Virus record (IMG/VR): IMGVR_UViG_3300042090_000783
Coordinates: 1-60,348 of that record
Strand: one strand, 5' to 3'
Source of the DNA: a virus
DNA length: 60,348 bases
Shown here: positions 1,008 to 39,676 of the stretch, in pieces
How positions within the stretch are numbered: the stretch's first letter is position 1
How the letters are laid out: each line of letters begins with the position of its first letter
The notes under the pieces: model-generated
The model's input: the letters and a program-made list of their open reading frames with translations, nothing else
Databases searched by the model: none
Told to the model about the DNA's origin: nothing
Position numbers and translations under genes: made by a program

Positions 1008-1394
1008 ATGACGGACGATTTCAAGGTAACGATGAACGAACCGGCCGCGCCGAAACCGGCGCCCCGGGCGCTGGCCGAGGGCAACGTCGTGACGGACTCG
1101 GCCGGCCGCCGCATCGGCATTCGCCGGCTCTCGGCTCTCGACAAGGCCCGCATCTTCCGTGCGATCGGCGGCGACGGCGCGGACAATAATCGCTATCTCG
1201 GCATGGTACTTGCCGCGGCCTCGGTCAGCAGCATCGACGGCGAGCCGCAGCCACCGGCGACCGCACTCGGCCTGCGCCAGATCGAGGCCATGATCGGGCG
1301 GCTCGATGATCACGGTATCCAGGCCGTCGGCGACGGCATGCAGGAACTCTATGGCGCCAGCCAAGCAGACGAGCTGGCCATCGCAAAAAAATAG
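1008..1394 (+). CDS. Tail assembly chaperone, short (frame-0) product
   Basis: The 128-residue product lies between tube and tape measure, where dsDNA tailed phages keep the chaperone that coats the tape measure protein during tail assembly. It is soluble with an Ala/Pro-rich N-terminus and a helical centre. The last codons are GCA AAA AAA TAG, so the stop follows directly on a run of seven A. That run forms a -1 slippery site leading into a second, longer product. AAGGTGG before the ATG is the ribosome binding site. Confidence 0.75.
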   Translation: MTDDFKVTMNEPAAPKPAPRALAEGNVVTDSAGRRIGIRRLSALDKARIFRAIGGDGADNNRYLGMVLAAASVSSIDGEPQPPATALGLRQIEAMIGRLDDHGIQAVGDGMQELYGASQADELAIAKK

Positions 1395-1568: not shown

Positions 1569-1781
1569 CTACCTGGCCTTCTTCGCCGGCTTTGGAGCCT
1601 CAAGGCCGGCCTCGATCAGGCGGCGGATGGCTTCGGGGCGATTAGGAACATCAGGTTGGGCGGCGCGCCACCCGTCGATCGCGGAGAGAAGATCGGGCTC
1701 AAGTCGAACGCCGACAGACTGATTAACCCCGGTCGCCGGGCGCCCGCGTGATTTTTTTGATTGCATAAAATCAGATTTCAT
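1569..1781 (-). CDS. Ribbon-helix-helix (Arc/Mnt-like) repressor
   Basis: The product is about 70 residues from the ATG at 1781, or 65 from the ATG at 1766. A basic N-terminus (KKSRGRP) precedes a beta strand (SVGVRLEP) and two helices (DLLSAIDGWRAAQP and NRPEAIRRLIEAGLEA), which is the Arc/MetJ ribbon-helix-helix pattern. Such dimers bind DNA with the beta ribbon. The gene faces the tail genes and diverges from an antirepressor, as mnt does in P22 immI. A 10-bp inverted repeat lies over its start codons and is a likely autoregulatory operator. A TTG at 1826 would extend the frame but would read through the operator. Confidence 0.72.
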   Translation of the reverse strand: MKSDFMQSKKSRGRPATGVNQSVGVRLEPDLLSAIDGWRAAQPDVPNRPEAIRRLIEAGLEAPKPAKKAR

Positions 1782-1790
1782 GATTTTATG
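1764..1790. promoter_or_regulatory. Candidate RHH operator (10-bp inverted repeat)
   Basis: CATAAAATCA (1764-1773) and TGATTTTATG (1781-1790) are perfect inverted copies separated by 7 bases. They sit in an AT-rich patch that stands out in this GC-rich genome. Both possible RHH start codons lie inside the element, so a bound repressor would block its own gene. Confidence 0.55.
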
Positions 1791-1805
1791 ATGCCACAAA
1801 ACAAC

Positions 1806-1841
1806 GGGCCGGACAAGAGGCGGCAACCTCTCATCCGGCCC
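1806..1841. other. Long hairpin in the RHH / S24-like divergent region
   Basis: GGGCCGGA (1806-1813) pairs with TCCGGCCC (1834-1841). Inside it AGAGG (1816-1820) pairs with CCTCT (1827-1831), with two unpaired bases on each side and a 6-base loop. On the minus strand it is followed by a T-rich stretch. It could be a terminator or attenuator in the RHH leader, or protein-binding DNA. Confidence 0.5.
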
Positions 1842-1864
1842 TAACCCCAGCCACGGAGTGACCC

Positions 1865-2248
1865 ATGGCCGAAGCTAAGCCTATTCCTAGCATTTTCCCG
1901 TCCCTCCCGGAACCCGGCCACGAGGTGGCGGCGCTCACCGAGCACCCGGCAAGCCGCCCGCGGCTCTTCCCGGTTCACGGCGACTATATGACGCCGACAT
2001 TCGAGCCGAATGGCTTCGCGATCGTGGTGCCTGTCGACCGTTACGAGGGCTCGCAGGTCTACGTGTGCGACTTCGGCATTGGCCCCGCGCTCTGGCGTGC
2101 CGAACATTGGCACGGTCAGGTGCGATGCTGGCACACTCACCCGCGGTACACGCCGCATACTGTCACGCTCGACGAGTTCAACCGTTGCGTGGTTGGGCTG
2201 GCCGTTGCCGCGATCGATGTTCTCGACCATCGAATTCTCCGCATCTGA
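1865..2248 (+). CDS. S24/LexA-fold-like protein with Tyr in place of catalytic Ser
   Basis: The 127-residue product contains VHGDYMTPTFEPNGFAIVV near residues 37-55. This closely follows the LexA/CI peptidase consensus GDSMxPT, but Tyr replaces the nucleophilic Ser, and no HTH domain is present. A later Cys/His/Trp-rich stretch (HGQVRCWHTHPRYTP) is unusual for S24. The gene starts ATG with GGAG six bases before it. It would keep a repressor-like oligomerisation fold without self-cleavage, perhaps interacting with a repressor. The fold assignment is an inference from one motif. Confidence 0.5.
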   Translation: MAEAKPIPSIFPSLPEPGHEVAALTEHPASRPRLFPVHGDYMTPTFEPNGFAIVVPVDRYEGSQVYVCDFGIGPALWRAEHWHGQVRCWHTHPRYTPHTVTLDEFNRCVVGLAVAAIDVLDHRILRI

Positions 2249-2250
2249 AT

Positions 2251-2358
2251 ACCCGCTTGGCAGCGGGTTCTAGCGCGGCAACCGATTCCACCGCTTCTCG
2301 GTGGCCGGGAGCCGCTTACGGGCGGCTGCCCGAACCGCGCCGGGTCTGCCAACCCGGT
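2251..2358 (+). promoter_or_regulatory. Four tandem hairpins in the antirepressor leader
   Basis: Four consecutive 6-bp stems with 5-6 base loops fill the gap before the antirepressor: 2251-2256/2263-2268, 2288-2293/2299-2304, 2310-2315/2322-2327 and 2340-2345/2352-2357. None has a terminator-like T tract. The last ends just before the GAGGAG ribosome site. A structured leader or small RNA controlling antirepressor translation is possible. Confidence 0.5.
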
Positions 2359-2374
2359 CACCGAGGAGACTGAA

Positions 2375-2953
2375 ATGAGCAACATCGTTACCGTGGACTT
2401 CCGAAACGACACGCTTTTCGCCGTCGAAAGGGATGATGGCGTCTTCGTCGCGGTCAAGCCGATCTCGGATGCGCTTGGTTTGAAGTGGGCTTCACAGCAT
2501 GACCGGCTCAATCGAGACCCGATTTTGAGCGAAGGTATCCTCGTCATGGGGATACCTTCGGTCGGCGGCATGCAGGAAACGACCTGTTTGAAGCTCGAAC
2601 TCGTCAACGGGTGGCTCTTCACGATCGACGAGAGCCGCGTGAAGGACGAGGAGACCCGGCAAAAGGTGCTCGCCTACAAGCGGGAGTGCTATCAGACGCT
2701 CTTCCGGCACTTCTACGGGCACGGCAAACGAGCCCAGGGCGAGACGATTAATCCGCCGCAGGACACCGAGGAGGCGGAGGGGCCGAAGGTCAGGCTCGTC
2801 ACCGAGGCGCGCCACACCTTCGGCATCCAGTCGGCGGCGCAACTCTGGTTCAAGCTCGGGCTGCCTGTCGTGCCGGCGATGCTGCATGACCCGCGGCAGA
2901 TATCGATCGACTATTCCGGGATCAAGCCGGCCGAGGAAAAGCCCGCAGCCTGA
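2375..2953 (+). CDS. Phage antirepressor, P22_AR_N family
   Basis: The N-terminal 110 residues match the P22 Ant N-terminal family: an FRNDTLFAVERDDGVFVAVKP start, then ISDALGLKWASQHDRL, then KLELVNGWLFTIDESRVKDEETRQKV. The C-terminus (residues 130-192) differs from P22 Ant and likely sets partner specificity. P22 Ant binds the C2 repressor and blocks it. Here the probable target is the CI-like repressor at 38946-39650 or a superinfected prophage repressor. GAGGAG lies 6 bases before the ATG. Confidence 0.85.
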   Translation: MSNIVTVDFRNDTLFAVERDDGVFVAVKPISDALGLKWASQHDRLNRDPILSEGILVMGIPSVGGMQETTCLKLELVNGWLFTIDESRVKDEETRQKVLAYKRECYQTLFRHFYGHGKRAQGETINPPQDTEEAEGPKVRLVTEARHTFGIQSAAQLWFKLGLPVVPAMLHDPRQISIDYSGIKPAEEKPAA

Positions 2954-3009: not shown

Positions 3010-3031
3010 GAGCGCAGGTGCCGTCTGCTAC

Positions 3032-3056
3032 CCTCATCCGGTTAACTCGGATGAGG
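3032..3056 (+). promoter_or_regulatory. Hairpin beside the ribosome site of the zinc-ribbon gene
   Basis: CCTCATCCG (3032-3040) and CGGATGAGG (3048-3056) form a perfect 9-bp stem with the loop gttaact. The 3' arm overlaps the GAGG of the ribosome binding site for the ATG at 3066, so folding would hide the site. It may alternatively be a dyad operator. Confidence 0.5.
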
Positions 3057-3065
3057 AGAAAGTGC

Positions 3066-3623
3066 ATGGCGTTGGCACCATGCCCCGAATGTGGGCGCGA
3101 AATAAGCGCGGAGGCGGCGAGTTGTCCGAATTGCGGCGCCCCGCGGAAGCCGTCGCTTCGATCGGCGGGGCCAATGATTTTTGCTGCCATTGTGGTGGTT
3201 GTCGTGGTTTGGGCGGCGATGCATCGCGGCAGCTCACCAAGTGACGGCGCATTAACCAATGTGATGGGGGCGCCTCCTGCCGCGGCCGGCGCATCAGCCG
3301 GCGCCACTCGGGGCTGGCCGCCCGTCAATCCAGACGAGGAATCGACGCCTGTCGATTTCACCTTGTCATGGGCAGGGCGCCTCAAAGGGTTCCACGATCT
3401 CGCCGATTTGCAGCGCTTGGCGGGCTCAAGAGGCGCGATCACGGAGATGACGGGCACCGCCGTCGGCTACCATTGGGACAGCGCCGCCGCACCCCCGGGC
3501 GGCGGCTACATGCTCGCAATCGTAAACCGGGACGGGGCTATCGGAGTGACCATCCTGACCGATAGAGGGGTGAGGGTGACGGTCAACAATCGCGGCGAAT
3601 TTCTTTGCGACGCTTGCCAGTAG
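3066..3623 (+). CDS. Zinc-ribbon, single-pass membrane protein
   Basis: From the ATG at 3066 (GAGGAG before it) the product is 185 residues. Residues 6-24 form a zinc ribbon with two CxxC pairs (CPECG and CPNCG). A hydrophobic segment near residues 37-51 (IFAAIVVVVVVWAAM) predicts one membrane span. A Gly/Ala/Pro linker and a compact C-terminal domain ending in CDAC follow. The Met codon at 3018 lies before the hairpin and has no ribosome site. Function is unknown. It sits in the accessory island, so a prophage-expressed host-modifying role is possible. Confidence 0.65.
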   Translation: MALAPCPECGREISAEAASCPNCGAPRKPSLRSAGPMIFAAIVVVVVVWAAMHRGSSPSDGALTNVMGAPPAAAGASAGATRGWPPVNPDEESTPVDFTLSWAGRLKGFHDLADLQRLAGSRGAITEMTGTAVGYHWDSAAAPPGGGYMLAIVNRDGAIGVTILTDRGVRVTVNNRGEFLCDACQ

Positions 3624-3645: not shown

Positions 3646-4131
3646 ATGCGCCAGTTCTCATCGTTCGGCGACCTGGCGGCATACCTCCGGCGCGTTGCGC
3701 GCGCCGTCCCGCGCGAGACCGAGGCGGCCCTGCATCGGATCGGCAACCGCGTCGAGACCGTGGCCAAGGGCAAGATCGGGCACTATCAGGAAGGCATCTT
3801 CCCAGGCGAAGGCGCCGACCCGTTCCCGGCCTGGGCAGAGCTTGCGCCGTCGACCATCGACGAGAAGACGCGGCTCGGCTACGCGCCGCCTGACAATCCG
3901 CTTTTGCGACGCGGAGAGCTTCGCGACAGCATCGGCCACGAGGTCGGCGGCACGTACACGGCGGAGCGCGTCACGCTCGGCAGCACGTCGCCGATCATGC
4001 CCTATCACGAACACGGCACCGACAAGATGCCGCCGCGCCCCGTCATCGGCGCGGCGATGGCGCAGGAGATGCCCGAGAATATGACCGACCTGCAGCGGGC
4101 CATCGCAAACGCTTTCGAGAAGACGAACTGA
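3646..4131 (+). CDS. Tail completion / virion morphogenesis protein (Mu gpG / HK97 gp10-like)
   Basis: The 161-residue product has the pattern of this family: a basic N-terminal helix, a central LLRRGELRDSI motif and a later YHEHGTDKMPPRPVIG stretch, which is characteristic of the gp10/gpG family. These proteins complete the head-proximal end of the tail. It overlaps nothing and is followed after 3 bases by the tape measure gene. Its position after the chaperone is unusual, because the accessory island separates the two. Confidence 0.68.
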   Translation: MRQFSSFGDLAAYLRRVARAVPRETEAALHRIGNRVETVAKGKIGHYQEGIFPGEGADPFPAWAELAPSTIDEKTRLGYAPPDNPLLRRGELRDSIGHEVGGTYTAERVTLGSTSPIMPYHEHGTDKMPPRPVIGAAMAQEMPENMTDLQRAIANAFEKTN

Positions 4132-4134
4132 CCG

Positions 4135-6540
4135 ATGGAATCCTTCACCGTCAGCTCGACGCTCACCGTCAAGGACGAGCTGACCGTCGCCCTCGAGCGC
4201 ATCGCCGAACTCGCGATCGGCACGGGCAAGGCGGTGGCGTCGGTTCAGAGCAGCATGGCCGGCTGGGCCAGGTTCGCGCAGACCATCGACCGGCTCGCGC
4301 CAGCCTTCAATCGGGCGACAGCGGCCGTCGACAAGTTCAACGCCGCTCAGGCCTCGGCGCTCAACAATGCCTCGTCGCGGCTCGACATGGTGCTGCGCCA
4401 GGCGGATCGCGCGGCGGACGTTGCTGCGGCTGCGGTCGCAGGCCGCTCGCGCCGGCAGATCGTGCAGAGCGTCCCGCTCGCGGCGCCGGTGGGCGAGCCC
4501 TACGGCGAACCGTCGCGGCCGACCCCCTATTGGCGCCCCCAGATCCCCTACATGGGCGCGCCGCTCGCGGAGCCGGTCGGGCGCCCTTCCTTTGGCATGC
4601 CGGCGGTTCCGCCGCCGGTCTACGGACCCCCGACGATCAACGGCGCGGGCAGAGAAATCGCGCCTTATCGGTGGAATTTCTCCGGCGGCGGTCCCGGCGG
4701 CGGGAGCGGTCAGGTGCCTGCGCCCGGCATCCCTGGCGGCGGATACGGCGCCGGCGCGACCGTCGCTGGTGGCTACGTGCTGCGCCAGGCCGGCGAGGAA
4801 ACGCTCGGGTTCCTGGGGAAGACTTACGAGGCAGCGAAGGGCTACGAGCAAGCGCTCGCGCGCTTCAAAACGCTCGATCTCGGAGATGCGATTAACCAGG
4901 ACGCCGACAGGTTTGCGCAGGGCTCCGGCGTCATGGGCGCGAGCGCGACCGACCTGATCACAACCCTGACGGACTTGCACACCGTCATGGGAGACTACGC
5001 AAACGCGAAGGCCGTCACGCCGCTCATCGCCAGGATGGAATTCGCCAACAAAGCCGTGTTCGACGCCAATTCCAAGTTCGACGAGGGACAGGCGCTCGCG
5101 CTGGCGAAAGTCATTGAACTGCGCGGCGGCTTCCGTTCGCAAGACGAGATGATGACGCAAGCCGATTTTATGCAGCATGTGCTTAGCGGGACCGGTGGCC
5201 GGGTCACGCCGAAAGACTACCTCGCCTTCATGAAGACGGGCGGCGTCGCGGCTCGGCTGCAGTCGAACGAAGTTTTCTATTACGAGATGGAGCCCCTGAT
5301 CCAGGAGATAGGGGGAATGCGCGCCGGCACGGGCCTCATGAGCGCATACCAAAACCTAGGGCAGGGGCGAACGACTTTGCGCGCGGCGAGGGAGCTGGAA
5401 AGGCTTGGCCTCGTCGACCCGAAATTGGCCGAGTATGACAAGCTCGGGCACCTTCTGCAGATCAAGCCGGGCGGCGTGCGCGGCGGCGATCTCGCTGGCT
5501 CCGATCCGATGAAGATGCTGACCGACGTGCTGCTGCCCGCGTTCAAGGCGCACGGGATCGACATCACTGACAACAAGGCCGTCATCAACGAGCTGAGCAC
5601 GGTCATTACGAACCGGACGGCATCGGCGCTCTATGCCACGCTCTTCCAGCAGATGGACAAGATCGCCAAAAACATGGCCGTCGACGCCAAGGCGATGGGG
5701 ATAAAGGGGCTCGAGGAAAAAGCGGAGGGCACGCCGGCGGCGGCCGAGATTAAGGCCAGCAACGCATGGAAAGATCTCCGCATCCAGATGGGGCTCGACA
5801 TCATCCCGATCATTATTCCGATGCTGAACGGTCTGGCTGGCGGGTTGAAGGCCTTGGCGACCGCAGCCCACGATCACCCCATAATCACGAGCGGGCTTCT
5901 CCTTGTCGCGGGCGCGATCGGCGCCCTGGCGGCCGTCGGTGGCACGGTCGTTCTCGCGGTGGCGGGCCTCAAGGCGCTGGCTTTCGTCTTTACGCTTCCC
6001 GGCTTTGCCGGCGCGTCGCTCACCGGCCTGGCGGGCAATCTCGGGCTCGTTGCTCGCGGCATGCTCGGCATGCTCGGGCCGATCGCCGCGGTCGTCGCCG
6101 CGCTCGCCTACTTCAAACCGCCCGACGACGTGGTCGAAAAGCGCCTGAAGGATGCCCAGAAGAACCCGTTGGGGGTCGGGAAGCCAGGCGAAGGCTGGCT
6201 CGATAATCTGTTCGGGTTCGAAGCTGAGCCCGACGACGAGAGTGCCGGCCTCAACACAAATCGCTGGGCCCCCCCTGAACCGCGAGTCTACGGGAAGGTG
6301 ACGGCACCCCTGCCGCCGCTATCGTCATCGTCTGCCCAGCCATCTCCGGCCGCCGACCCGGGCCTCGTCGATCGCATCGCTGCCGCCATCAAGGCCGCCC
6401 TCCACGGCACCGCCGTCATGATGGATGGGCAGACGGTAGGCCGCCTCGTCACCGACCACCAGGCTCGCGAAGGCGACCGGCCGCCGTCCTCGTCCAGCCT
6501 TTTCGATATGCGCATGGCGCCGCTCTACCCGAACCAATAG
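4135..6540 (+). CDS. Tape measure protein
   Basis: At 801 residues this is the longest gene in the genome, lying between the chaperone and the baseplate hub genes. The first 100 residues are helical and Ala-rich. Residues 120-210 are Pro/Gly-rich. The middle is helical, and hydrophobic segments occur near residues 560-660 (IIPIIIPMLNGLAGG and LLLVAGAIGALAAVGGTVVLAVAGL), as expected for a protein that threads the tube and enters the inner membrane. The C-terminus is Pro/Ser-rich. The length would set the tail length. Confidence 0.8.
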   Translation: MESFTVSSTLTVKDELTVALERIAELAIGTGKAVASVQSSMAGWARFAQTIDRLAPAFNRATAAVDKFNAAQASALNNASSRLDMVLRQADRAADVAAAAVAGRSRRQIVQSVPLAAPVGEPYGEPSRPTPYWRPQIPYMGAPLAEPVGRPSFGMPAVPPPVYGPPTINGAGREIAPYRWNFSGGGPGGGSGQVPAPGIPGGGYGAGATVAGGYVLRQAGEETLGFLGKTYEAAKGYEQALARFKTLDLGDAINQDADRFAQGSGVMGASATDLITTLTDLHTVMGDYANAKAVTPLIARMEFANKAVFDANSKFDEGQALALAKVIELRGGFRSQDEMMTQADFMQHVLSGTGGRVTPKDYLAFMKTGGVAARLQSNEVFYYEMEPLIQEIGGMRAGTGLMSAYQNLGQGRTTLRAARELERLGLVDPKLAEYDKLGHLLQIKPGGVRGGDLAGSDPMKMLTDVLLPAFKAHGIDITDNKAVINELSTVITNRTASALYATLFQQMDKIAKNMAVDAKAMGIKGLEEKAEGTPAAAEIKASNAWKDLRIQMGLDIIPIIIPMLNGLAGGLKALATAAHDHPIITSGLLLVAGAIGALAAVGGTVVLAVAGLKALAFVFTLPGFAGASLTGLAGNLGLVARGMLGMLGPIAAVVAALAYFKPPDDVVEKRLKDAQKNPLGVGKPGEGWLDNLFGFEAEPDDESAGLNTNRWAPPEPRVYGKVTAPLPPLSSSSAQPSPAADPGLVDRIAAAIKAALHGTAVMMDGQTVGRLVTDHQAREGDRPPSSSSLFDMRMAPLYPNQ

Positions 6541-21619: not shown

Positions 21620-22726
21620 TCACGATTTGCGCTCCATCGCCGCCCGAGCCTCGCTCAGATAGTCCGGGTGGTGATGGGCATAGAGCTCGGTCGTGCGCGC
21701 CACGCTGTGGCCCAGGTAGCCGCTGATCTGCCACATCGGCACGCCGCGCTGCGCCATCCAGGTCCCGGCCGTATGCCGCAAGGTGTGGCTTGTGCAGTCC
21801 GGGATGTCGGCGCGCGCCGCCGCTCCGTTGAACCCCGTCTTCACGTCGGCCACCCTCTCGCCGCGGTAGGCGATGACATGCTCGGACGCAGCCCGCTTGT
21901 GGGCTCGCCGAAGGGCGGCGAGGAGCGACCGCGGCACCGGGATGATGGGACGCCGCTTGTTGGTCTGGAGCCGGCTGGGCGGGTTGAAGTCGATGACGCC
22001 GGCCACCAGGTCGACCTGGCGCCATTTCAGATCCAGGATGGCGCCGCGCCGCTGGCCGCTGTAGAGCGCCACCAGGATGTAGAGGGGCAGGTGCAGGCGC
22101 CCCTGGGGGCTCTTGCGCGCTTCGCGAAGCAGCGCCGCAGCCTGGGCGCGGGTGATCCAAAAATCGCGACCCCTGGGCGCCTGGGGCACCGGGACGTGAT
22201 AGTCGCCGGGCTGCAGGCGCTTTTGCTGGACGGCATGGCGGATCGCCGGACGCAGGGTCCCGGCCAGCTCGCGGATGATGGTGCCGTCGCTCACCCCGCG
22301 CGGCACTTCCTCGAGCGTCCCGTCCGCCGTCGTCCTGACCGTGTTGGTCCGGCGCCACGTCCAGTATTCCTTGACGCGGCCGGAGGTCAGGGCCTCGATC
22401 GTGTCGCCGTGGAAGAAGTAGGCGAGGGGCTGGACGAGGTGCTTGATCGTGTCGGGCGACGCGACCTCGCCGCCGTGGTCTTCCGAATAGCCCCTCAGGA
22501 CGTCGGAGACGAGGACCGCAGCGGGATCACCTGAGCGGGCTGCGCGCCGCCTGTGGCGTTCGGCGAGCCATGCCTCGAAGGCTTCCTGGGCTCGCCCTGG
22601 GTCTTGATGGCCTGTACTCGCTTTCCGGCGCCGCCCGGCCTCGGTCCAGACGATGTAATAGGTGGCCTGGGTCCAGCCGGCATTTCTGATGGCGACGAGA
22701 CGCGGTCCGAGGTTGGGGCGGGGCAT
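21620..22726 (-). CDS. int: Tyrosine-family site-specific integrase
   Basis: The 368-residue product has an N-terminal SAM-like arm domain and a C-terminal catalytic domain. The active-site residues are visible: Arg in YSGQRRGAILDLKW (near 243), a beta-hairpin Lys region, HTLRHTAGTW (about 315) with His and Arg, GHS (His near 339), and the nucleophile Tyr in TTELYAHHHPDY. It ends 108 bases from the attP core. Its 5' end is overlapped by the excisionase-like gene, so the two are made from one leftward transcript. Confidence 0.93.
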   Translation of the reverse strand: MPRPNLGPRLVAIRNAGWTQATYYIVWTEAGRRRKASTGHQDPGRAQEAFEAWLAERHRRRAARSGDPAAVLVSDVLRGYSEDHGGEVASPDTIKHLVQPLAYFFHGDTIEALTSGRVKEYWTWRRTNTVRTTADGTLEEVPRGVSDGTIIRELAGTLRPAIRHAVQQKRLQPGDYHVPVPQAPRGRDFWITRAQAAALLREARKSPQGRLHLPLYILVALYSGQRRGAILDLKWRQVDLVAGVIDFNPPSRLQTNKRRPIIPVPRSLLAALRRAHKRAASEHVIAYRGERVADVKTGFNGAAARADIPDCTSHTLRHTAGTWMAQRGVPMWQISGYLGHSVARTTELYAHHHPDYLSEARAAMERKS

Positions 22727-38628: not shown

Positions 38629-38955
38629 TCATTTTGGGGCGCCTCGTGACGGCGAAAGCGACGGCATCGCAAGCTCGGCTTGATGGTCTGAAAACAAAAC
38701 CGGGTGCCATTCGTAGGTGAATGTCGCAGGTTCGTCCTTTTTCGCCGCTGCCACGGGCGCACGCACCAGGACCCAACTATGGCCGTTGCACTGATCGATG
38801 AGAATGTAGTCCGGCTCTATGTCGGACACGCGTTTGGTCGCGATCTCGAAACATCGGGACTGCTGGCTTTGCCCCGGATCGGTCGGCTCATCGGCGAGCG
38901 CGGCGACAGGCGCTCCCGCCAAGGCAGCCGCCAGGAAGAACGCCCTCACGTCCAT
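38629..38955 (-). CDS. Exported protein downstream of the CI-like repressor
   Basis: The 108-residue product starts near 38955 (ATG at 38961 or GTG at 38949 are alternatives) and overlaps the repressor stop. Residues 1-22 (RAFFLAAALAGAPVAALA) are a signal peptide. Two Cys follow in the mature protein (SRCFEIATKR and DQCNGHSW). As it is co-transcribed with the repressor it should be made in the lysogen, so superinfection exclusion or host modification is possible. Confidence 0.65.
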   Translation of the reverse strand: MDVRAFFLAAALAGAPVAALADEPTDPGQSQQSRCFEIATKRVSDIEPDYILIDQCNGHSWVLVRAPVAAAKKDEPATFTYEWHPVLFSDHQAELAMPSLSPSRGAPK

Positions 38956-39650
38956 AGCCATTTCCCGATGACCCGACCCTGGATGTAGGCCTCGCCAAGG
39001 ACGCGGTCGTAAGGGTCGTACTTCGTGTTGTCCGACGACATTCGAACCGTCGGCGGGTCCGAATGCGGCAGGTATCTGATCCGCTTGATGACGAAGCCGA
39101 GCCCATCCCAGACGACGAAGACGCCTTCTGGGGAGGGGATTCGATCGGCGGTGTCGACCATGACCCGATCGACCGGGCTGTATGTCGGCACCATGCTGTC
39201 ACCCTTGACCCTGAGAAGCTTGATGCTCTCGATCGGCGAGTCCGTGGCTACCTCGGCAAGGTCTCTGGGGACGCGCCATCGATGCAACACGGCGACGTCG
39301 CCGACCTCGCCTCCAGCGCCGGCGGATGCGGTCAAGTCGAGTTCGTCGACGCCGACCATGCGTGCGTCGCGCACCCGGGGCGAAAGGATGTTGACGGGCT
39401 CGCCCGCGGTCGCTGGCAGCTCGCTCGCCTCCTTCAGCTCGTCGCCAAAGAGGATCCAGTGCCACGGTCGCGGCAGATGCCTCGCGAGCTGGCGCGCAAC
39501 GTTATCGGTGATCGTCCGTGTGCCGTTCTCGTAGGAGCGATACGTCGCCTCTGGAACGTCGGCCGCATCCGCGAACGCAGCGGCGCTGTCAAACCCAGCC
39601 TCTTCTCGAGCGCGCTTGAGGCGGTTGGCGCGAAGTTTCTTCTCGTCCAT
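38946..39650 (-). CDS. CI-like repressor: HTH plus S24 peptidase domain
   Basis: From the ATG at 39650 the product is 234 residues. The N-terminal HTH is LRANRLKRAREEAGFDSAAA, then DVPEATYRSYENGTRTITD. The C-terminal S24 domain has VKGDSMVPTYSPVD with catalytic Ser and a Lys in GFVIKRIRYL, so it can self-cleave on RecA activation. It lies between the two operator pairs and should repress PL and PR to maintain lysogeny. The frame extends to 39695, but those codons overlap operator O3. Confidence 0.9.
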   Translation of the reverse strand: MDEKKLRANRLKRAREEAGFDSAAAFADAADVPEATYRSYENGTRTITDNVARQLARHLPRPWHWILFGDELKEASELPATAGEPVNILSPRVRDARMVGVDELDLTASAGAGGEVGDVAVLHRWRVPRDLAEVATDSPIESIKLLRVKGDSMVPTYSPVDRVMVDTADRIPSPEGVFVVWDGLGFVIKRIRYLPHSDPPTVRMSSDNTKYDPYDRVLGEAYIQGRVIGKWLWT

Positions 39651-39676
39651 GGCGTTGCACATCGTATCGGATGGGG

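Follow-up and report, generated by a model that had tools for sequence, protein, structure and literature searches.

Origin and setting of the island

Why does an antirepressor-type switch lie inside a phage tail operon, and how might such a switch be controlled? These questions are raised by a viral DNA of 60,348 nt (IMG/VR record IMGVR_UViG_3300042090_000783), the whole of which is referred to here as the window. The first ~98 bases of the record are repeated at its end, and from this terminal repeat we take the record to be a complete circular genome of ~60.25 kb whose linear record breaks within the tail sheath gene. The genome contains an integrase gene (21620-22726), DnaB-like helicase and terminase genes, and a gene for a CI-like repressor, which together indicate a temperate myovirus whose primary immunity region is of the ordinary kind and lies far away from the island analysed here. 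The host or phage lineage is likely alphaproteobacterial. The nearest relatives of the ribbon-helix-helix (RHH) protein encoded in the island are found in Bradyrhizobium, in Rhodoplanes (a phage), and in a Komagataeibacter phage (phiKM1).

The island consists of an RHH gene that reads leftward and two rightward genes, for an S24-like protein and then an antirepressor, and is flanked by a tail assembly chaperone gene and a neck/tape-measure module. The sequence-only reading of this DNA had placed the repressor and antirepressor genes as a pair that splits the tail genes, and this was borne out, with the sheath, tube, and chaperone genes to the left and the neck and tape measure genes to the right. 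The bipartite layout that it described was also found, in that the island is a second switch separate from the CI-like region. The flanking features and the primary repressor are as follows.

1008-1394, plus strand: tail assembly chaperone, 128 aa (phrog_20383, E 1e-17), the left flank of the island
To 1567, plus strand: putative -1 frameshift extension of the chaperone, read from the sequence, with an A7 slippery run at 1385-1391 linking the frames 1008-1394 and 1391-1567
3018-3623, plus strand: moron-like zinc-ribbon membrane protein (Pfam Zn_Ribbon_1, E 1e-6), between the cassette and the tail genes
3646-4131: neck/HK97-gp10-like protein, right of the island
4135-6540, plus strand: tape measure protein (phrog_28, E 1e-20), with the cassette upstream
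38946-39662, minus strand: CI-like primary repressor with HTH and S24 domains and an intact GDSM motif (phrog_4, E 1.6e-35; Pfam S24 and HTH_3)

A search of IMG/VR for close relatives of the tape measure protein found none.

The RHH gene, its dyad and a leader hairpin

1569-1781, minus strand: RHH repressor, 70 aa from ATG, opposite to the late operon (PHROG phrog_4738 'transcriptional repressor', E 1.4e-9)
1764-1790: perfect 10-bp dyad, CATAAAATCA-N7-TGATTTTATG, overlapping the RHH start codon
1804-1868, plus strand: leader hairpin (stem 1806-1841) followed by CTAACC, between the operator and the first ORF

The leftward gene had been described as Arc/Mnt-like. Its RHH character is supported by the PHROG match, and the match to Pfam RHH_1 is below cutoff (E 0.027). 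The relation to Mnt and Arc of P22 was not upheld, because a profile of the RHH protein compared with both by hhalign gave a probability of only 0.1, and the RHH class is all that they have in common. The proposed operator-like dyad over the RHH start was confirmed. The 60.3 kb contain just two perfect inverted repeats with arms of at least 10 and a spacer of at most 9, of which this is one, and we presume this dyad to be the operator for divergent promoters. A scan of the island region for sigma-70 promoters yielded no match.

An alignment of the RHH protein retrieved 80 viral and 80 bacterial-genome loci, mostly from Bradyrhizobium, Sphingomonadales, and related groups. In a wider inverted-repeat test covering 144 loci, inverted repeats were enriched at RHH starts (mean 8.43 vs 7.02, p 2e-12), and perfect short palindromes with spacers of at most 9 were only slightly enriched there. 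The leader hairpin is shared by most of these loci. A model built from 18 sequences (R2) matched 60 of the 80 viral and 56 of the 80 genomic loci at E<=1e-3, and 58 of the 60 viral matches were within 250 nt of the RHH start. No Rfam family was found for the hairpin at 1804-1868; a role in antitermination or attenuation would fit.

The S24-like protein

1865-2248, plus strand: orphan S24-like protein, 127 aa, no HTH (phrog_4, weak at E 1.7e-4; phrog_6201), in the Arc position

This gene had been regarded as an extra one. That description does not hold, because the gene occupies the position of Arc, and other cassettes have similar orphan S24-like or leader ORFs in that slot. Its assignment to S24 is weak but consistent. 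The ORF has 30% identity to the C-terminus of the CI-like protein of the same genome (E 2e-6), and in the alignment to CI the active-site Ser is replaced by Tyr and the catalytic Lys is also lost, so that the Ser-Lys dyad is absent and the protein is, as read from this alignment, catalytically dead. A related orphan in a Rhodoplanes serenus phage (E 5e-17) has Asn in place of the Ser, and another at locus L132 has Ala. Thus, three related HTH-less S24-like orphans occupy the first-gene slot, with Tyr, Asn, or Ala at the active Ser. The protein has no Pfam match, its profile matched no PDB sequence, no close relative was found in IMG/VR, and an AlphaFold model was unusable (pLDDT 42).

The antirepressor gene

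2375-2953, plus strand: antirepressor Ant (P22_AR_N), 192 aa (Pfam PF10547, E 7e-28; phrog_524 anti-repressor Ant, E 6.5e-42)
2530-2560, plus strand: perfect 11-bp hairpin inside the ant codons

The rightward antirepressor described after the leftward RHH gene was confirmed. Over 120 aa the protein is 29% identical to P22 Ant (E 1e-15), and the homology is in the N-terminus; at 192 aa it is shorter than P22 Ant, which has 300 aa. From these sequence relations, it is plausible that Ant inactivates the CI of its own phage, and the CI-like protein is the presumed target.

The hairpin inside ant is retained with different letters in the ant genes of L015, L039, L085, and L090. It is stronger than in synonymous shuffles, with a p of 0.006 in the window and 0.02-0.13 in the others, but not so in L002. 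We considered it as a CI operator and rejected this, since its arm has no matching recurrence at the CI region.

Recurrence of the cassette upstream of tape measure genes

P22_AR, Bro-N, and Rha genes, and genes of an uncharacterised family, were found beside the RHH gene when neighbour families were sought with a small query set, and the orientation was almost always divergent, with one match otherwise oriented. Of 73 distinct viral loci, at least 20 carry a divergent antirepressor-type gene, and more carry the uncharacterised family. The count is a minimum, since many of the contigs break off close to the RHH gene. An alignment of two Ant sequences, used for an initial scan of genomes, gave no match. 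All 10 cassettes tested have a tape measure gene as the first long ORF beyond their second gene, and the encoded proteins belong to different families. Sheath or tail tube genes are often on the opposite flank.

The layout had been thought notable for an alphaproteobacterial myovirus. The phage is a myovirus and its alphaproteobacterial origin is likely, but the layout is not a one-off because it recurs before the tape measure gene. This preferred position prompts one to ask why a switch for induction should be in the tail operon. In phiKM1, the chaperone and tape measure genes are adjacent with no island between them, and an RHH/KilA-N pair is at a different late position.

These counts bear on the idea that the RHH and S24-like genes form a stand-alone two-gene unit, such as a toxin-antitoxin-like or addiction module, with ant as a neighbour by chance. 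RHH proteins are common as antitoxins, and related RHH genes occur on Bradyrhizobium plasmids without ant. However, 20 of the 73 viral loci have an antirepressor gene next to this RHH family, nearly always in divergent orientation, and no toxin family was matched, which makes this explanation very improbable.

A C4-like RNA precedes the antirepressor gene

2250-2278, plus strand: a1b1 target, with a1 (TTGGCAG, 2257-2263) in a hairpin loop and b1 (GCGCGG, 2273-2278)
2294-2368, plus strand: C4-like antisense RNA domain, with b' (CCGCGC, 2335-2340) and a' (CTGCCAA, 2346-2352)

The S24-like gene and ant are separated by 126 nt, for which folding predicted a long hairpin with a three-way junction (z -2.1, modest alone). 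The Rfam C4 model (RF01695) matched at 2295-2367 with 25.6 bits (E 0.036 with all families, 3.3e-4 with C4 alone). This match directly before ant is the best in the genome, and it is under the Rfam gathering score (25.6 vs 45 bits, with P1 itself at 68.8). At the gathering threshold, Rfam gave no match in seven relatives, and other members of the new RNA family barely score as C4. Within the domain, GUCUGCCAACCC of the window matches GUCUGUCAACCC of P1. The a1 and b1 segments are perfect complements of a' and b', and the bipartite target occurs only twice in the 60 kb, as a1b1 (2257-2278, plus strand) and as its complement inside the C4-like domain (2335-2352, minus strand). The 3' arm of the domain ends in GGAG, which is the ant Shine-Dalgarno sequence, and this is inside the closing stem. 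No second target, a2b2, was found between the domain and ant, nor any second bipartite copy in the 60 kb. Other weak Rfam matches in the island (RAGATH-10, mir-612, Bp2_287) were taken as chance.

When other RHH-divergent cassettes were scanned for stems enclosing a Shine-Dalgarno sequence, similar elements were found, and nine of these were used to build a covariance model (R1). Application of R1 to the RHH locus set identified three further loci with a clean gap to background. In Bradyrhizobium it matched 19 loci in 17 of 266 genomes, and among sampled Alphaproteobacteria 2 of 385 genomes, which added one genome. Antirepressor loci L015, L039, L064, and others had no R1 match.

To measure the a/b pairing we swapped partners between loci. 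Cognate complementarity exceeded that of swapped partners among 30 loci (a1:a' 6.07 vs 4.23; b1:b' 5.50 vs 3.98; p 2e-4 each) and also in a blind set of 21 loci outside model building (a1:a' 5.76 vs 4.36; b1:b' 5.38 vs 3.84; p 2e-4 each). Crossed controls, a1:b' and b1:a', had no effect (p 0.97 and 0.72). Model R1 does not include the a/b pairing and therefore cannot have shaped the alignment to suit it. Covariation was seen as well: 27 of 35 pairs changed on both sides (0.464 vs 0.181 shuffled), and the a1:a' helix, treated as a pseudoknot, had 86.6% paired cells with 5 of its 7 pairs changed on both sides. For b1:b', where the alignment register shifts, the swap test replaced a count by columns.

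It is possible, if doubtful, that the RNA before ant is no more than a strong hairpin acting in cis to mask the Shine-Dalgarno sequence, as a thermosensor, in a riboswitch-like way, or in processing, and that a1b1 pairs only within its own transcript, as a pseudoknot that does nothing in trans. Such a hairpin is consistent with the burial of the Shine-Dalgarno sequence in the closing stem of the nine loci used to build R1, with a1b1 being <45 nt upstream in the same transcript, and with the absence of a downstream a2b2. By contrast, the match to P1 C4 in both sequence and topology, a' segment included, argues for a C4-family RNA, as does the observation that the a and b letters differ among phages on a retained scaffold, which is expected of an immunity address.

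The same results bear on whether the island might be a decaying insertion without function. Its position varies among phages and Ant is shorter than that of P22. Yet the ORFs are intact, the RNA pairing is conserved, the dyad is perfect, and the same operon site is used repeatedly, and of all the explanations considered we regard decay as the least probable.

Proposed mechanism

We favour the reading that the island is an autonomous immI-type switch for induction and immunity, carried as a late-operon moron and combining P22-like with P1-like control, and we give this function, which we infer, a probability of about 0.7. In the lysogen, the RHH protein would bind the dyad at its own start and repress both its own gene and the divergent rightward promoter. 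When this control fails, or just after infection, a transcript with the S24-like ORF, a1b1, the C4-like RNA, and ant would be made. The three-way junction of the C4-like domain has a closing stem of ~16 bp that contains the ant Shine-Dalgarno sequence and may thereby prevent translation. Pairing of a1/b1 with a'/b' would be a lock in cis. In trans, it could be an address that lets C4 or a1b1 RNA made by another copy recognise the transcript. The lack of a second target and the burial of the Shine-Dalgarno sequence in the C4 closing stem point to such a cis-acting lock with a trans-acting address. Opening of the lock would allow Ant to be made, and Ant, judging from its homology, would inactivate the CI-like repressor and lead to lytic growth. 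More speculatively, the dead S24-like protein might compete for, or heterodimerise with, the S24 domain of CI and so disturb CI dimers, or might be an Arc-like second regulator.

The direction of RNA control is the least certain step of this mechanism. In Gifsy-1 (isrK-orf45-anrP), a leader RNA holds translation of the antirepressor off and the short IsrK RNA turns it on in trans (PMC4825925). Since the Rfam IsrK match falls on a1b1 of P1, an activating role of a1b1 RNA is also possible.

Ant could instead act on other resident prophages rather than on its own CI, which would make the island a selfish or accessory regulatory moron that causes trans-induction. Cassettes with different Ant types are found in phages with unrelated tails, and trans-acting antirepressors are known from Gifsy phages (PMC4825925). 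We think this unlikely, because this genome has an intact S24-type CI and the Ant proteins of P22 and P1 target the repressor of their own phage.

Comparison with known immunity systems

The island had been called P22 immI-like. As in P22 immI (mnt/arc-sar-ant), there is a leftward repressor gene, an operator, here presumed, between divergent promoters, and a rightward small gene followed by an Ant with a homologous N-terminus, and both systems lie in a late region, which in P22 runs from gene 16 to gene 9, apart from the primary immunity region. Unlike in P22, the repressor has no detectable relation to Mnt or Arc, a dead S24-like protein takes the place of Arc, the cassette is before the tape measure gene, and the gap before ant has a sense-strand C4-like RNA of the P1/P7 type, whereas the P22 gap encodes sar, an antisense RNA over the start of ant, on the opposite strand. 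The cassette is thus more general than had been assumed, and the P22 label is half the story.

The other half resembles immI of P1 and P7 (c4-icd-ant). C4 antisense RNA is processed by RNase P to a trans-acting RNA of ~77 nt. In the deposited P1 annotation, a1 and b1 are upstream of C4 and a2 and b2 are downstream, where this second target overlaps with the ribosome-binding site of icd/ant. The likeness is in the C4 three-way junction, a' and b', the upstream a1b1, and the antirepressor downstream in the same transcript. The differences are that the presumed promoter here adjoins the RHH operator and is not under C1 control as in P1/P7, that the ant Shine-Dalgarno sequence is inside the C4 stem, that neither a2b2 nor icd was found, and that the score is below the Rfam cutoff. 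Gifsy-1 is similar in that a leader RNA holds the antirepressor off at translation, but it has no RHH protein and relies on an upstream ORF.

Among alphaproteobacterial elements, the Komagataeibacter phages phiKM1 and phiKX1 also have a leftward RHH gene and a divergent antirepressor-like KilA-N gene among late genes, with KilA-N in place of P22_AR_N and another insertion site. phiKX1 has two RHH-like genes and then KilA-N, a likeness to mnt-arc-ant in gene order. The R. serenus phage-plasmid NZ_LR026982 shares the RHH gene, the leader hairpin, the dead orphan S24-like protein, and the C4-like RNA, but its downstream gene is not ant and encodes an uncharacterised protein of a family with a RAMP-like predicted fold.

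The island is best filed as a form of immI-type control of an antirepressor in which an RHH operator is accompanied by a C4-family RNA. Two classical immunity circuits, the P22 repressor-operator and the P1 C4 antisense RNA, are joined here in one portable cassette. Predicted C4 RNAs were listed only outside Alphaproteobacteria (PMC5320573), and the present RNA extends the C4 type to that class. The variable and mostly cognate a/b pairs make RNA-coded superinfection immunity directly testable.

A possible wider role of the unit, and associated genes

At L173-L192 in Bradyrhizobium genomes, the C4-like RNA and its a1b1 stand before small genes of the excisionase/AlpA-like and 'MSRGAHTFKQ' types, which look like parts of integrative elements. 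Because these are not antirepressor genes, the role of the RNA seems broader than immunity. We consider it an evenly balanced question whether there is a new control unit in alphaproteobacterial phages and integrative elements, made of the RHH gene, the leader hairpin, and a Shine-Dalgarno-burying C4-family RNA with a variable a1/b1 address. Such a unit would drive P22_AR, Rha, and Bro antirepressors, a RAMP-fold protein, and excisionase-like genes, would be preferentially before the tape measure gene, and would use the a/b letters to define immunity groups across unrelated phages.

Several further genes were seen at these loci. A phage protein family is under the RHH/C4-like unit at L012:4699-5316, L053:4381-5133, L082:4637-5296, L091:4399-5154 (minus strand), and others. 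Its R. serenus member has no Pfam match. An AlphaFold model of the family (pLDDT 70) searched with Foldseek suggests a RAMP/Cas7 (Csm3-like) fold (E 4e-5, TM ~0.5); these are possibly RNA-binding proteins for induction or counter-defence. The divergent regions of L064, L077, L058, and L039 contain an ORF of ~120-210 aa with a Tat-signal-like start (RRxF), often between the leader ORF and the antirepressor gene. Acinetobacter phage ABMM1 (L007) has another late-operon antirepressor island, with antirepressor genes and a RelE/Phd-like pair between the sheath and tail tube genes.
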